The notes under the pieces were generated by a model. The model worked only from the letters and a program-made list of their open reading frames with translations. It searched no databases and had not been told where the DNA came from. From a bacterium (GTDB lineage: Bacteria; Sysuimicrobiota; Sysuimicrobiia; Sysuimicrobiales; Segetimicrobiaceae), in the NCBI GenBank assembly GCA_035307765.1, contig DATGHU010000044.1, positions 124,001 through 188,000 of the forward strand: a DNA stretch of 64,000 nt, read 5' to 3'. A program made the position numbers and the translations under genes. Of this stretch, positions 41,496-47,319 are shown in pieces; within the stretch, counting starts at the first letter, position 1, and each line of letters starts with the position of its first letter.

Positions 41496-41598
41496 ACCCC
41501 CACTATACCAGAGTGCCCCGCGGCGCGGGGCGCTCCGCCGGGTCCGCGGCGCGACGACGTCTCGAGACGTTTGAAGTGGACTTCCCCGGGGGAACCAC

Positions 41599-41604
41599 TA
41601 TAAT
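41599..41604 (+). promoter_or_regulatory. Probable -10 box for the trehalose cluster
   Basis: TATAAT at 41599-41604 lies about 35 nt upstream of the riboswitch. The -35 is weak (TGGACT, 16 nt upstream). The rest of the rsmI-otsA gap is accounted for by the riboswitch and its terminator. Confidence 0.55.
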
Positions 41605-41636
41605 GGAAACCGGACGACCATCAAACAGGCCTGTGT

Positions 41637-41770
41637 GGTTGTGCCGAGTCCCTGCCGCGGGCAGGGAGCGGGGGATCCGGATGGTGGGGCGCAGCTCGCG
41701 CGCGGCGCGAGTAGGGGAGTCTCTCTCGACCCGAGCCCGACAGCTAACCCCGTAGGCGGCGAGGGAGGGT
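41637..41770 (+). promoter_or_regulatory. c-di-AMP riboswitch (ydaO/yuaA type)
   Basis: All conserved blocks of the ydaO aptamer are present in order: GCCGAGTCC (41643-41651), GGGGGATCC (41670-41678), TGGGGCGCAGC (41685-41695), a GC-rich variable stem, GTAGGGGAG (41711-41719), then CCCGAGCCCGACAGCTAACC (41730-41749) with CGTAGGC (41751-41757) and GGGAGGG. The order and wording match the B. subtilis ydaO aptamer closely (GCCGAAUCC, GAGGAACC, UGGGGUUAAUC, GUAGGG, CCCGACAGCUAAC, GGAGGC). Binding two c-di-AMP molecules would stabilise it. A terminator follows within 20 nt, so it is probably an OFF switch for the trehalose genes. Confidence 0.93.
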
Positions 41771-41787
41771 GGCCGGGACAACGAGCA

Positions 41788-41824
41788 CGCCCGGAGGCCC
41801 CGTCTCCGGGCGATTTGTATTTCT
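41788..41824 (+). terminator. Riboswitch expression-platform terminator
   Basis: CGCCCGGAG (41788-41796) and CTCCGGGCG (41804-41812) form a perfect 9-bp stem with loop GCCCCGT, followed by ATTTGTATTTCT. It stands between the aptamer and the otsAB start. Confidence 0.87.
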
Positions 41825-41869
41825 CCCTCGCGCGATCACTCAGGACGACTCCGGGGGGGGTGATGATCG

Positions 41870-44182
41870 GTGCATGGGCATGGTGGGCTTCCGAATCGCC
41901 TGCGCGGGGTCCTGGCCGACCGCCCGTTGATCGTCGTCAGCAACCGGGAGCCGTACACGCACCGCCGCAGCGGGGGCGCGGCGAAGGTCGAGCGCCCGGT
42001 GGGCGGGCTCACCGCGGCTCTCGATCCGGTGATGCAGGATCTCTCCGGGACTTGGATCGCCTGGGGGGATGGGGACGCGGACTTCGACGACGTCGCCGCG
42101 GGGGGGAGGGTTCCGGTTCCCCCCGAGGCCCCTCGCTACACGCTGAAGCGCATCGCCCTGCCGCATCCCGAGGTCGAGGGATACTACTACGGGTATGCGA
42201 ACCAAGCCCTGTGGCCGCTCTGCCACATGGCCATGAGCCAGGCTCGGTTTCGGGCCCGCTATTGGGCGGCGTATCAGAGCGTGAACGCCCGGTTCGCCGC
42301 GGCGGTTCGGGAGGAGGCCGGCCGGGAGGCCCTCGTGTGGATCCACGATTACCACCTGGCGCTCTGTCCCCGTGAGCTCCGCCGCACCCGCCCCGATCTG
42401 TTCCTCATGCATTTCTGGCACATCCCCTGGCCCGCCTGGGACGTTTTTCGGATCTGCCCACAGGGCGCCGAACTGCTCGACGGGCTGCTGGCCAACGACT
42501 TGATCGGCTTTCAGCATCCCCGCCATGTGGAGCACTTCCTGGAGTGCGCGGAGCGCGAGATCGGCGCTCGGGTCGAAGACGGCATCGTCGAGTACAAGGG
42601 CCGGGTGACCCACGTCGAGGCCTTCCCGATCAGCGTGGATGCCGCGGCCTTGGACCAGCTGGCGAGGTCCCGGTCGTGTGAGCGGTGGATGGCTCGGTTG
42701 CGCCGGCGGTTCGCGCTCGAGGGGCGGACCGTGGCGGTGAGCGTCGACCGCCTCGACTACACGAAGGGGATCCCCGAGCGGCTCAAGGCGATCGACCTGT
42801 TCTTCAAGCGGCGGCCGGAGTACCGGACCCGGGTGGTCTTCATTCAGAAGACGGCTCCCAGCCGGACCCGGATCAAGGCGTACCGGGACCTTGAGAGCCA
42901 AGTCGAGGAGGCGATCGCGCACCTGAACGCGGCGTATGCGGTGGAGGGGTGGCAGCCGGTGATCTCCCTGCCGCAGCCCCTGCCGCCCGCGGGGATGGCC
43001 GCCCTCTATCGGATGGCGGATCTCTGCGTCGTTAGTTCCCTGCAGGATGGGATGAATCTCGTCGCCAAGGAATTTGTCGCCTGCCAGGTCGACCGCCGCG
43101 GCGTGCTCGCGCTCAGCGAGCTGGCGGGCGCCCGCGACGAGCTGTCGTGGGCGATCCCCATCAACCCGTATGACGTGGAGGGCTGCGCGGACGCGCTGGC
43201 GCGGGCGATTGAGATGCCGGTCCTGGAGCGGCGGCGGCGGCTGGACCGCCTCCGGACCGACGTTGCCGAACACGACATCACCCACTGGGTGGACCAGCAC
43301 CTCGAGGCGGCCGCCCACCTGCTCGGGGCCCGATCCGCGACCCGGCAGCTGTTCGACGCCGCCGGCCGGATCGATCCCACCGTGGGGAGGGGGCGCCCGC
43401 TGGCCCTGCTCATGGACTTCGACGGTACCCTGACCGGGTTTGCCGATGATCCCGACTCCGTGCGGATCCCGCCGCGGATCCAGGCGGCGCTCGCCCGAAT
43501 TGCCCGTGCCCCGGACACGTTCGTCGCCATCATCAGCGGACGCGCGCTCGACGACATCCGGCTCCGCGCCGGCATCGACGGGATCGTCTACGGGGGGAAT
43601 CACGGGCTGGAGATCGCCGGGCCGGGATGGACCTGGACGGTGCCCAAGGCCGAGGAGGCACGCGGGGCAATCGGGCCGTGCTGTGTGCGCCTGCGCGCCC
43701 GCCTGCGCGGAGTGCCCGGTGTCTGGGTCGAAGACAAAGGCCTGACCGCCAGCGTTCATTACCGGCGAAGTCCCCACCGTCATGTGGAGCAGGTCCGGAT
43801 GGCCGTGCTCGAAGAGCTGGCCCAGCTTTCCCCGCGGACGCTCGGGGTTCGGCAGGGGAAGCACGTGCTCGAACTGCGGCCGGACATCTCCTGGGACAAG
43901 GGCGCCGCGGTGCGGTGGGTGCTCACCCGAGCGCTCGGGGACGACTGGGCGGCAACCGCGTCGGTGGTGTACCTCGGGGACGACCGGACCGACGAGGACG
44001 CCTTCGAAGCCCTGGCCGCCCCCGCCGTGACGGTGAAGGTCGGGCCGAACGCCCACCCGACCGCGGCGCGCTACGCCGTGCGGAACATCGACGAGGTGTA
44101 CCGGTTCATCGAGACGATCGACGCCAGGCGGGCCGCGTTGTCGGTCCCGGCCGGGGCGGCCGCGGGCGGCGCGGGTGGGTAA
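41870..44182 (+). CDS. Bifunctional trehalose-6-phosphate synthase/phosphatase (OtsA-OtsB fusion)
   Basis: 770 residues. The N-terminal ~470 are a GT20 synthase: RPLIVVSNREPYTHRRSGGA, VWIHDYHLALCP, FWHIPWPAWDVFRICPQG, SVDRLDYTKGIPERLKAIDL and SSLQDGMNLVAKEFVAC. The C-terminal ~270 are a HAD phosphatase with DFDGTLTGF, IISGRALDDI and GDDRTDEDAFEAL. It makes trehalose-6-phosphate from UDP/ADP-glucose and glucose-6-phosphate and dephosphorylates it. GTG 41870 is the only start upstream of the family sequence. Such fusions are common in plants and known in a few bacteria. Confidence 0.95.
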   Translation: MHGHGGLPNRLRGVLADRPLIVVSNREPYTHRRSGGAAKVERPVGGLTAALDPVMQDLSGTWIAWGDGDADFDDVAAGGRVPVPPEAPRYTLKRIALPHPEVEGYYYGYANQALWPLCHMAMSQARFRARYWAAYQSVNARFAAAVREEAGREALVWIHDYHLALCPRELRRTRPDLFLMHFWHIPWPAWDVFRICPQGAELLDGLLANDLIGFQHPRHVEHFLECAEREIGARVEDGIVEYKGRVTHVEAFPISVDAAALDQLARSRSCERWMARLRRRFALEGRTVAVSVDRLDYTKGIPERLKAIDLFFKRRPEYRTRVVFIQKTAPSRTRIKAYRDLESQVEEAIAHLNAAYAVEGWQPVISLPQPLPPAGMAALYRMADLCVVSSLQDGMNLVAKEFVACQVDRRGVLALSELAGARDELSWAIPINPYDVEGCADALARAIEMPVLERRRRLDRLRTDVAEHDITHWVDQHLEAAAHLLGARSATRQLFDAAGRIDPTVGRGRPLALLMDFDGTLTGFADDPDSVRIPPRIQAALARIARAPDTFVAIISGRALDDIRLRAGIDGIVYGGNHGLEIAGPGWTWTVPKAEEARGAIGPCCVRLRARLRGVPGVWVEDKGLTASVHYRRSPHRHVEQVRMAVLEELAQLSPRTLGVRQGKHVLELRPDISWDKGAAVRWVLTRALGDDWAATASVVYLGDDRTDEDAFEALAAPAVTVKVGPNAHPTAARYAVRNIDEVYRFIETIDARRAALSVPAGAAAGGAGG

Positions 44183-44855
44183 GCGCGCCGCGAACGCGGC
44201 CTTCCGATTTACGTCCTGCCACGGGCTCCAACAGATGCTCGGCCGGGTGGCGCGGGACGAACTGGAGCTCCTCCAACACCTGGACGAGGTCCCGATCGAG
44301 AGCATCCACCATCACACCCACGCGTACTTTCTGCGCCACCATTATCTGGCCGGGGCGTACCCCAACGACTTTGCGACGTGGGCGGCGATCCAGGTCCGCG
44401 ACCGCGTGCTGGGAGAGCGGCTCGCGATCGTGGACCCGTTCGACTTCCAGGATCTCGAGGCGCTTCGCTCCACGCTCATCACGATCGTCGACGACCACCT
44501 CACGCACACCCCGGTGGTGCCGCGGGTGGTGTACGGGGAGCCGTTCTACTTCATGATCACGACGCTCGCCGAATTCCCTACGGGGCTCGAGGCGCGTACG
44601 CTGCGGGAGTTCCGCGACGGCCTGGCTCGGGCCGAGGTGTCCGTCGTCTACTTCCATCTGTTTGAGGCCCCCCGCCGCCGCCTGCCGACGTTCGGGGCCT
44701 GGCTGGAGATGCAGGGAGAGGCGGGACTGGCGGAAGAGGTCCGGCGGCTCCATCCCTACACATCGGATCTCGAGGGATTGCGCGCCCGCCTGCTCACGCT
44801 CTGCGACGCTGCCCTGGCGGGCCGGCTCGAGGTGAAAGGTCCCCATGGCGACTGA
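44175..44855 (+). CDS. DUF5752-like protein of the trehalose cluster
   Basis: 226 residues, GTG 44175 overlapping the otsAB stop by 8 nt. The start (FRFTSCHGLQQMLGRVARDE) and the core HHHTHAYFLRHHYLAGAYPN with DFATWAAIQVRDRVLGERLA match an uncharacterised family, DUF5752, that I recall next to TreT-type trehalose synthases. Its His-rich segment could hold a metal. It lies between two trehalose enzymes with overlaps on both sides, which points to a role in the same pathway or its control. Confidence 0.7.
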   Translation: MGKRAANAAFRFTSCHGLQQMLGRVARDELELLQHLDEVPIESIHHHTHAYFLRHHYLAGAYPNDFATWAAIQVRDRVLGERLAIVDPFDFQDLEALRSTLITIVDDHLTHTPVVPRVVYGEPFYFMITTLAEFPTGLEARTLREFRDGLARAEVSVVYFHLFEAPRRRLPTFGAWLEMQGEAGLAEEVRRLHPYTSDLEGLRARLLTLCDAALAGRLEVKGPHGD

Positions 44856-46056
44856 CGGGAACTCCCTCGACCGGTACCGGGACGTCGCTCCCCCGGGCTC
44901 GGTCGACGCGCTGTACCGGTTCGGCGAGCGGGTGCGGGGCAAGCAATTCGTGCACGTCAATTCGACCCGATACGGCGGCGGGGTGGCCGAGATGCTCCAC
45001 CGCCTCCTCCCGCTCCTGAACCAGCTGGGGGTGGAGACCCGGTGGGAAGTCCTCCAGGGCGACGAGGAGTTCTTCCGCATCACGAAGAGCTTCCACAACG
45101 CCTTCCAGGGGGACGAGCAGGCGATCTCCGCGGAGATGCTCGAGCACTACCTGGAGGCGAACCGGCGAAACGCTGCGCGGCTTGACCTGGACGGCGATCT
45201 CATCCTGATCCACGATCCTCAGCCGGCGGCGCTGATCGAACGCCGGGGGCGGGGCGCGTGGGTGTGGCGGTGCCACATCGACGCCTCGCACCCGCAGCGG
45301 CGCGTCTGGGCCTTCTTTCGCCCCCTCATCTCCCGGTACGACGCCGCGGTGTTCTCGCTGCCCCGGTTCGCCCAGCGCCTAGGGATCCCGCAGTATCTGA
45401 TCTACCCGAGCATCGATCCGCTCAGCGACAAGAATCGAGACCTCCCCGCGGAAGAGGTCCAGGCCGTGCTGGCCCGGTTGGGGATCCCCCAGGACAAGCC
45501 GATCCTGCTCCAGGTGTCCCGGTTCGACCGGTTCAAAGACCCGGTGGGGGTCGTTCAGGCCTACCGGTTGGTGAAGAAGCACGACGACTGCCGACTGGTG
45601 TTGGCGGGCGGTGGTGCGGTCGACGATCCCGAAGGCCCCAAGGTTCTCGCGGAGGTCCAAGCGACGGCGGCCGGCGATCCGGATGTCCACGTCCTCGTCC
45701 TGCCGGATAACGCCAACGTCGAGATCAACGCGCTCCAGCGCGCCGCCACGATTGTGCTCCAAAAGTCCACTCGCGAGGGGTTCGGGCTGACCGTCGCGGA
45801 GGCGATGTGGAAGGGGAAGCCGGTGATCGGCGGATTTGCCGGGGGGATCACCGTGCAGATCGTCTTCGGGACGACGGGATACACGGTGAACTCTCCGGAG
45901 GGTGCCGCGTTCCGGGTGCGCTACCTGCTGAACAATCCGCAGGTGGCCATGCGGATGGGAGAGAACGCGCGCGAGTACGTCCGGCGAAACTTCCTGATCA
46001 CCCGCCACCTCGCCGATCTTCTGGCGCTCCTGGCGCTGCGCACCCGGGCGGCGTGA
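44845..46056 (+). CDS. treT: Trehalose synthase TreT (GT4 glycosyltransferase)
   Basis: 403 residues. The TreT signature is clear: KQFVHVNSTRYGGGVAEMLH at the start, LDLDGDLILIHDPQPAALIE, RCHIDASHPQRRVWAFFRPL, then PILLQVSRFDRFKDPVGVVQ and TREGFGLTVAEAMWKGKPVI at the nucleotide-sugar site. It makes trehalose in one step from ADP- or UDP-glucose and glucose. It overlaps the DUF5752-like gene by 11 nt. Confidence 0.95.
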   Translation: MATDGNSLDRYRDVAPPGSVDALYRFGERVRGKQFVHVNSTRYGGGVAEMLHRLLPLLNQLGVETRWEVLQGDEEFFRITKSFHNAFQGDEQAISAEMLEHYLEANRRNAARLDLDGDLILIHDPQPAALIERRGRGAWVWRCHIDASHPQRRVWAFFRPLISRYDAAVFSLPRFAQRLGIPQYLIYPSIDPLSDKNRDLPAEEVQAVLARLGIPQDKPILLQVSRFDRFKDPVGVVQAYRLVKKHDDCRLVLAGGGAVDDPEGPKVLAEVQATAAGDPDVHVLVLPDNANVEINALQRAATIVLQKSTREGFGLTVAEAMWKGKPVIGGFAGGITVQIVFGTTGYTVNSPEGAAFRVRYLLNNPQVAMRMGENAREYVRRNFLITRHLADLLALLALRTRAA

Positions 46057-46065
46057 GGCCCGCCG

Positions 46066-46902
46066 CTAGCGCCGCGGGCGATCCTGCCGCGCCGCGGGCT
46101 TGCGCGCCCGAATGAACGCGCTCATCACCCGGCCGTCGATGCGCGGTGCATGGGCTTCGACATCAACCCCGCAGCCGGAAAGGAATTCGCGCGCGTCGTC
46201 CACGCGGTAGACGCGGGTGGGCTCCACGCCAATCGCCTCAAACCCCGCCCGCCCCAGCTTTTCGGCGTACTCGCGCACCTCCAGCGCCCCCGCGACGCAG
46301 CCCACCCACAGTTCCATGCTGCGCCGGAGGTCGTCCGGCATCTCCCCCTGGATCACGACGTCCGACACGGCGAGGCGCCCGCCGGGCCTGAGGACGCGGA
46401 AAGCTTCGGCAAAGACCCGGTCCTTCTCGCCGGAGAGATTGATCACGCAGTTCGAGATGATGACATCGACCGAGTCATCGGGCAGGGGGATGCGCTCGAT
46501 CTCGCCCATCAGGAATTCGGCGTTGCGAACTCCCGCCCGGTGCTGATTGGCCCGCGCCAGGGCCAGCATTTCCTCGGTTATGTCAAGCCCGTAGGCCTTT
46601 CCGGTGGGCCCGACGCGTTTGGCGGAGAGGAGGACGTCAATCCCACCCCCCGATCCCAAATCGAGCACCGTTTCTCCCGGGTGCAGGTGGGCCAGCGCCG
46701 TGGGGTTCCCGCATCCCAGGGAGGCCCGAAGGGCTTCCGGCGGCACCTCGGCGACCTGTTCCTGATCATACAGGTTCGCCGTCACGGGATCGCCGGCGCC
46801 GGAGGGCCCGCAGCAGGCGCTCGCGCAGCACCCGCCCCCACCGCCGGCGACGCGGATCGCCGCCCGCGCGTATTTGTCCCGGATCGCGTCCTTGAGCTCC
46901 AT
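46066..46902 (-). CDS. arsM: Arsenite methyltransferase ArsM
   Basis: 278 residues. The SAM-binding fold has [19 protein letters not shown] and [20 protein letters not shown], a typical ArsM block. Cysteines for arsenite are at [11 protein letters not shown] near the start, SNCVINLS and GCVAGAL. The N-terminal [13 protein letters not shown] insertion is known in this family. It methylates As(III), making volatile or less harmful forms. It follows arsR by 30 nt on the same transcript. Confidence 0.94.
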
Positions 46903-46932
46903 CGATCTTGCCTCCCCCAGGGCCTAGTCCCG

Positions 46933-47319
46933 TCACACCGGCGTCCCCACCCACGCGACGGGGCGGGGATTGACGGCTTGGTTCCGGGTGCAACACTCCG
47001 CGTAGAGGAACCCCAACAGCTCACGTAGCGAGCCGGTGTGCGCGGCGTACCACAGGTAGGTGCCCTCGCGCCGGACGGTGACCAACTGCTCATGGCGGAG
47101 TTTCTCCAGGTGATGGGAGAGTGTGGAGTTCGGGATATCCAGCGCAGCCTGGATCTCCCCGACCACCAAGCCGCCGGGGTGGGCCGACAACAGCAGCCGC
47201 ATGATGCGCAGCCGCGCTTCCGTCCCCATCGCGGCGAACATGTCGGCATAGCGGATGAGATCCCCGGGGTCGGGTTGCCGCGGCATCGCCTGAGGGTCCC
47301 CGCGCGGTCGCCGGTCCAT
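46933..47319 (-). CDS. arsR: ArsR-family metalloregulator
   Basis: 128 residues from ATG 47319, with a shorter start at 47286. The winged helix reads EARLRIMRLLLSAHPGGLVV, then EIQAALDIPNSTLSHHLEKL and REGTYLWYAA. The usual helix-3 ELCVCDL site is absent (GEIQAALDI), and the only cysteine pair is YAECCTRN near the C-terminus, which may bind arsenite as in other ArsR types. It would repress itself and arsM until As(III) binds. Confidence 0.92.
   Translation of the reverse strand: MDRRPRGDPQAMPRQPDPGDLIRYADMFAAMGTEARLRIMRLLLSAHPGGLVVGEIQAALDIPNSTLSHHLEKLRHEQLVTVRREGTYLWYAAHTGSLRELLGFLYAECCTRNQAVNPRPVAWVGTPV

Follow-up and report, generated by a model that had tools for sequence, protein, structure and literature searches.

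The c-di-AMP riboswitch and the trehalose genes in the window

The DNA analyzed here (the window) is a 64-kb stretch of a 3.8-Mb bacterial genome, in which a predicted c-di-AMP (ydaO) riboswitch with a downstream terminator is followed by genes for an OtsA-OtsB fusion protein (OtsAB), a DUF5752 protein and the trehalose glycosyltransferring synthase TreT. The features of the locus are as follows.

41577-41604, + strand: sigma-70-like promoter upstream of the aptamer, TGGACT-16 nt-TATAAT (consensus scan, 10/12 matches)
41632-41772, + strand: c-di-AMP riboswitch aptamer RF00379, P1 strands 41642-41645 and 41755-41758 (62.9 bits; alignment with 18 relatives)
41756-41775, + strand: predicted antiterminator 5′ arm, composed of the P1 3′ strand and the GAGGGAGGG tail (duplex prediction in 19 relatives and the window; −23.6 kcal/mol in the window)
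41788-41812, + strand: intrinsic terminator hairpin of 11 pairs, 9 of them G-C (−21.2 kcal/mol)
41796-41812, + strand: predicted antiterminator 3′ arm, composed of the terminator loop and 3′ arm
41813-41822, + strand: T-rich tract of the terminator, ATTTGTATTT (read directly)
41870-44182, + strand: otsAB, OtsA-OtsB fusion of GT20 and HAD phosphatase domains (PF00982, E 6e-127; PF02358, E 1e-40; solved OtsA structures, E 4e-92)
44175-44855, + strand: DUF5752 protein of 226 aa (PF19027, 183 bits, cut-off 23), a relative of Thermoproteus tenax OrfY
44845-46056, + strand: treT, trehalose glycosyltransferring synthase of 403 aa (PF21269, E 6e-57; PF00534)

A search of Rfam returns the c-di-AMP/ydaO family RF00379 with 62.9 bits (gathering score 38, E 3e-12), and the match is full-length, covering model positions 1-134, which places the RNA in the family by its covariance model. 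It is the sole Rfam match within the window and the only RF00379 match in the whole genome. Aligned with 18 further aptamers from the phylum, the window aptamer departs from near-invariant columns only at positions 41648 and 41764, and it carries an extra inserted base at 41720. Judged by sequence and covariance, the window carries a genuine RF00379 member of the terminator type. The aptamer had been proposed in an earlier note made from the sequence alone, and its identity stands, while its start moves from 41637 to 41632.

Both catalytic domains are present in OtsAB, and the DxDGT, SGR and GDD motifs as well as the conserved GT20 residues are invariant in nine homologues. TreT is full-length, aligning over residues 6-401 with solved structures (PDB 6ZJ4, E 6e-134; TreT 2X6Q, E 2e-109). 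The DUF5752 protein is related to PDB 4CSO (phmmer E 2.4e-10; Foldseek E 7e-4 with a low-confidence AlphaFold model, mean pLDDT 61), and no function is assigned to it from this fold. The genes are all on the + strand and overlap by 8 nt (otsAB/DUF5752) and 11 nt (DUF5752/treT). A crude sigma-70 consensus scan finds no promoter-like site on the + strand from 41604 to 46300, and thus neither between the genes, which would make them a single operon as suggested earlier, nor between the riboswitch and otsAB, where a strong promoter had been named as evidence against riboswitch control. Past the end of treT, the region 46066-47319 (− strand) contains a gene for a methyltransferase (14 methyltransferase profiles), Cys-rich at its start, beside a small ArsR-like ORF (46933-47319); the two resemble an arsenite methyltransferase pair and have no bearing on the riboswitch.

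Expression platform and direction of switching

A strong hairpin follows the aptamer at nearly all riboswitch loci of the phylum, usually with a T-rich tail. In the window this is an 11-bp hairpin starting 15 nt past the aptamer end, in agreement with the perfect terminator described earlier within 20 nt. The tail after P1 (GAGAGAAGG at most loci) is complementary to the hairpin loop and 3′ arm (CCTTCTC), and the best predicted duplex usually includes the P1 3′ strand (GGC with GCC). In the window, the resulting antiterminator and the terminator are near-equal in energy (about −21.6 versus −21.2 kcal/mol). A+T-rich TATAAT-like boxes are present at sites comparable to that of the window promoter in several relatives.

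The two antiterminator arms co-vary, pairing as GAGAGC/GCTCTC in G017-G019, as GAGACGG/TCGTCTC in G029 and as CCAGGGAA/TTCTCTGG in G004. Across 18 loci, the mean pairing energy is −18.9 kcal/mol with their own arms and −16.9 kcal/mol with swapped arms (permutation p=0.0008), and the same permutation on a pruned subset of 14 less related loci gives p=0.007. In per-locus shuffles, most single loci show no antiterminator strength beyond that of the shuffled sequences, as the leaders are G+C-rich; the arm-swap permutation across loci was used in their place, and only this joint test is significant. A terminator and a predicted antiterminator, conserved in relatives, thus form the expression platform before otsAB. 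The G009 riboswitch (L038:6462-6700) has no terminator, and an ATG lies within a few bases of its GAGAGAGGGG tail, which suggests that this switch may act on translation, with the tail itself serving as ribosome-binding site.

Since the ligand closes P1 in the RF00379 class and the antiterminator needs the P1 3′ strand, the leader is predicted to be an OFF switch, and the shut-off logic assumed in the earlier note is supported. The weakest point of this mechanism is that the minimum-energy fold of the window leader does not contain the ligand-free antiterminator state: the terminator forms, and P1 is not part of the best fold. As the free fold favours the terminator even without ligand, the switch must be kinetic (co-transcriptional), or else the thermodynamic model is off, and energy folding alone is not counted as evidence for the switch.

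Targets of the riboswitch within and outside the phylum

The distribution of the riboswitch was surveyed in 43 genomes of the window's phylum, with the surrounding DNA compared with the window proteins. This mostly uncultivated phylum, relatives of which are filed under Armatimonadetes/Armatimonadota, is probably Sysuimicrobiota, formerly CSP1-3, to judge from its single class, single order and few families (PMC11604079). RF00379 identifies 20 riboswitches in 17 of the 43 genomes, spanning four families (f1-f4). Sixteen of the 20 lead into an OtsAB operon, a count that is not fully independent owing to the near-identical pairs G026/G027 and G016/G019. The route to OtsAB is direct in 12 cases, through a BrkB/YihY-type membrane protein in two, and through a TreT-like gene and then BrkB in two; at a 17th riboswitch the contig breaks off within BrkB. 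Of the three left, one precedes an ABC sugar transporter and an MGH1/trehalase-like hydrolase, one a G8-domain protein (G004, L039:4-1866), and one no recognisable gene (G012, L023:8424-8562). Among OtsAB copies that are at least 50% identical and have upstream DNA, 16 have a riboswitch and about eight lack one (G003, G008, the second copy in G009, G010, G011, G013, G014 and G015). A model built from the phylum aptamers finds no weaker riboswitch upstream of the Rfam-negative OtsAB and TreT copies of the phylum, or of OtsAB in other phyla. The phylum-wide constant is the riboswitch-OtsAB arrangement.

Two of the neighboring gene types may also relate to solute handling. The BrkB/YihY-type protein (PF03631), whose gene separates the riboswitch from OtsAB in several relatives (L029:632-1447, L031:2837-3715, L036:6578-8182), may act as a partner in the export of trehalose or in osmotic export. 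The ABC transporter locus follows a second riboswitch in G005 (L033:1558-7104) and encodes a solute-binding protein, permease and ATPase together with the MGH1-like hydrolase, which has a weaker trehalase match; it may import a compatible solute, or turn it over, in response to the same messenger.

Controls were drawn from 47 genomes found by way of the closest OtsAB homologues; 44 of these genomes lie outside the phylum. RF00379 is present in seven of these 44, in no case beside OtsAB. Together with samples from Actinomycetota (reached through Gordonibacter), the Halanaerobium phylum and Nitrospirota, they make up 97 control riboswitch loci, none of which has a relative of OtsAB, TreT, DUF5752 or TreY within ~1.5 kb. 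The contrast between 16 of 20 riboswitches in the phylum and 0 of 97 in the controls indicates that the link to trehalose is a trait of the window's lineage, and it bears out the trehalose target by much stronger comparative evidence than the earlier note could draw on.

The control loci in Actinomycetota have target kinds that are already known, including TrkH, M23 peptidases, a lytic transglycosylase and lysine 2,3-aminomutase. The last, an osmolyte-synthesis gene linked earlier to the RF00379 class in Dehalobacter (PMC9337991), follows three of the Actinomycetota riboswitches (L188, L189, L192). In Nitrospirota, riboswitches were seen by eye before Kup-like K+ transporters (L247, L248, L254, L257, L265) and KimA-like permeases (L251, L253).

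The DUF5752-TreT pair

Every DUF5752 gene of the phylum with visible neighboring DNA lies directly 5′ of a TreT gene of the ~70%-identical type. In families f2 and f4, this pair is often arranged tail-to-tail with OtsAB at a distance of 30-80 bp and lacks its own riboswitch, whereas the window pair runs in the same direction as OtsAB and overlaps with it. Among the 43 phylum genomes, only that of the window has the pair inside the riboswitch operon, and it is also the only member of family f1 with a TreT domain. The same otsAB-DUF5752-treT order, without riboswitch, is present in G037 (family f5). In two relatives, G002 and G018, the gene placed under the riboswitch encodes another TreT-like protein, with 43% identity. 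A shared switch for OtsAB and a TreT-type protein is therefore found in three genomes and two layouts. Our guess is that the window layout arose by inversion of the DUF5752-TreT pair. The proposal of two redundant trehalose routes under one switch accordingly holds for the window genome but does not extend to a general rule, as the DUF5752-TreT pair is elsewhere a separate unit.

The middle protein, described earlier as DUF5752-like and uncharacterised, is assigned to PF19027 with 183 bits, and the second half of that description requires amendment, since the family is TreT-linked and has a relative of solved structure, OrfY (4CSO). The T. tenax OrfY entry is deposited as a 'transcription factor', and no paper was found under either the DUF5752 or the OrfY name. 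From its gene neighborhood and its relation to OrfY, the DUF5752 family is probably a partner or regulator of TreT.

A tentative alternative to two parallel routes, which we regard as possible though doubtful, is that OtsAB, DUF5752 and TreT form one assembly in which TreT or DUF5752 activates OtsAB, or a make-and-salvage pair in which TreT acts in reverse and recovers glucose from trehalose. TreT is reversible in some archaea, as salvage would need, and the constant position of DUF5752 5′ of TreT fits an assembly. A precedent for the latter is the T. tenax trehalose-phosphate synthase/phosphatase TPSP, an OtsA-OtsB fusion that acts as a synthase only in complex with a GT4-family glycosyltransferase encoded on the same transcript (PMC3634074). 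However, that partner is not TreT, which the same paper lists as a separate one-way synthetic route in T. tenax, and most riboswitch-bearing relatives have OtsAB but no TreT, so that TreT is not required in general.

c-di-AMP supply and a proposed mechanism

The genome encodes a DAC domain protein (PF02457, E 1e-42) in the gene order cdaA-cdaR-glmM (CdaA, a YbbR-type protein, then phosphoglucosamine mutase), and the organism should therefore make c-di-AMP. TreY and TreS are not found in this genome, which is 96% complete, leaving OtsAB and TreT as the only trehalose-synthesis enzymes recognised in it; a bypass of the switch by TreY/TreZ or TreS was considered and set aside on the same grounds.

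The computation shows the aptamer, the terminator, an antiterminator that competes with it and has co-varying arms, the layout of the operon, a target conserved across the phylum and a c-di-AMP synthase in the genome; we infer ligand binding, the direction of the response, a single transcript, an osmotic role and the enzyme activities. In the proposed mechanism, c-di-AMP would be high when K+ is sufficient and hyperosmotic stress is absent, and the ligand would close P1 and thereby tie up its 3′ strand. With that strand occupied, the terminator at 41788-41812 would form, and transcription would stop before otsAB. Under osmotic stress c-di-AMP would fall, and the P1 3′ strand with its GAGAG-type tail would pair with the terminator loop and 3′ arm; the antiterminator so formed would allow RNA polymerase to read through, and trehalose would be made as a compatible solute. 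A c-di-AMP riboswitch tested before a lysine aminomutase gene likewise turns osmolyte synthesis off at high c-di-AMP, read as 'no osmotic distress' (PMC9337991), and the osmotic role suggested here for the otsAB riboswitch is consistent with this example.

We consider it very likely that a terminator-type RF00379 OFF switch controls a single otsAB-DUF5752-treT transcript. Control might instead be limited to otsAB, with DUF5752-treT expressed from a promoter inside otsAB or after processing and the two routes uncoordinated by c-di-AMP. The relatives in which the pair is a separate unit without riboswitch, usually convergent with OtsAB, indicate that a promoter of its own would be workable, but the same-strand overlaps of 8 and 11 nt and the lack of an intervening promoter-like site in the crude sigma-70 scan make such an arrangement unlikely in the window. 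That the aptamer is a relic which has lost c-di-AMP sensing is very improbable: its score of 62.9 bits is below that of most relatives (63-99 bits) and its tail is altered (GAGGGAGGG), but the core columns are conserved, the expression platform is intact and a c-di-AMP synthase is encoded in the genome. An ON switch, in which c-di-AMP raises read-through, can hardly be expected; the RF00379 class could in principle be wired either way, but nothing was found in favor of this wiring, the P1 3′ strand is within the antiterminator so that a ligand-stabilised P1 favors the terminator, and in the tested class members, which stand before osmolyte, rpfA and K+ genes, c-di-AMP brings about termination (PMC9337991, PMC10117811).

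Beyond the OFF switch itself, we lean slightly towards a broader reading in which c-di-AMP is dedicated in this phylum to switching trehalose synthesis, which would be its chief output through RNA, with the window riboswitch governing every recognised trehalose-synthesis gene (OtsAB, and TreT with DUF5752).

Relation to known systems

Neither the switch class nor its OFF logic is new, and the control of osmolytes by RF00379 members has precedent. Shared with the class are the aptamer sequence and fold, the downstream terminator, the use of the P1 3′ strand and GAGAG tail in the antiterminator, and the OFF logic. The target differs: RF00379 members are known to control transporters for K+ and amino acids, hydrolases of the cell wall and genes of the osmotic response (PMC7266159, PMC10117811), while in the window the target is trehalose synthesis. 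In the open-access literature searched, no paper was found linking the RF00379 class to trehalose genes; trehalose synthesis is thus a target not found reported for the class, and it is characteristic of the phylum. We regard the finding as solid and useful, not startling. It connects trehalose synthesis at the RNA level with c-di-AMP, a messenger that serves K+ and turgor balance, in a whole phylum that devotes its c-di-AMP riboswitches mainly to this purpose. It also offers a testable case of c-di-AMP governing a compatible solute by synthesis, beyond transport, and a G+C-rich terminator riboswitch with natural co-variation, of use in mechanism studies.

The tandem Na+/c-di-AMP riboswitch before lysine 2,3-aminomutase in Dehalobacter, an enzyme producing the precursor of N-ε-acetyl-β-lysine, similarly shuts off compatible-solute synthesis through transcription termination (PMC9337991). 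The window differs in its osmolyte and enzyme, and has a single aptamer with no Na+ riboswitch. The T. tenax msc-gt-tpsp operon (PMC3634074) shares the OtsA-OtsB fusion co-transcribed with a GT4-family glycosyltransferase (in the window, in a predicted operon) and a membrane protein, which may be likened to the BrkB beside OtsAB in several phylum relatives; it is archaeal and without riboswitch, and its glycosyltransferase differs from TreT. The T. tenax relative of DUF5752 is a separate protein, OrfY (4CSO), and the tie of DUF5752 to TreT provides a lead on an unstudied family.
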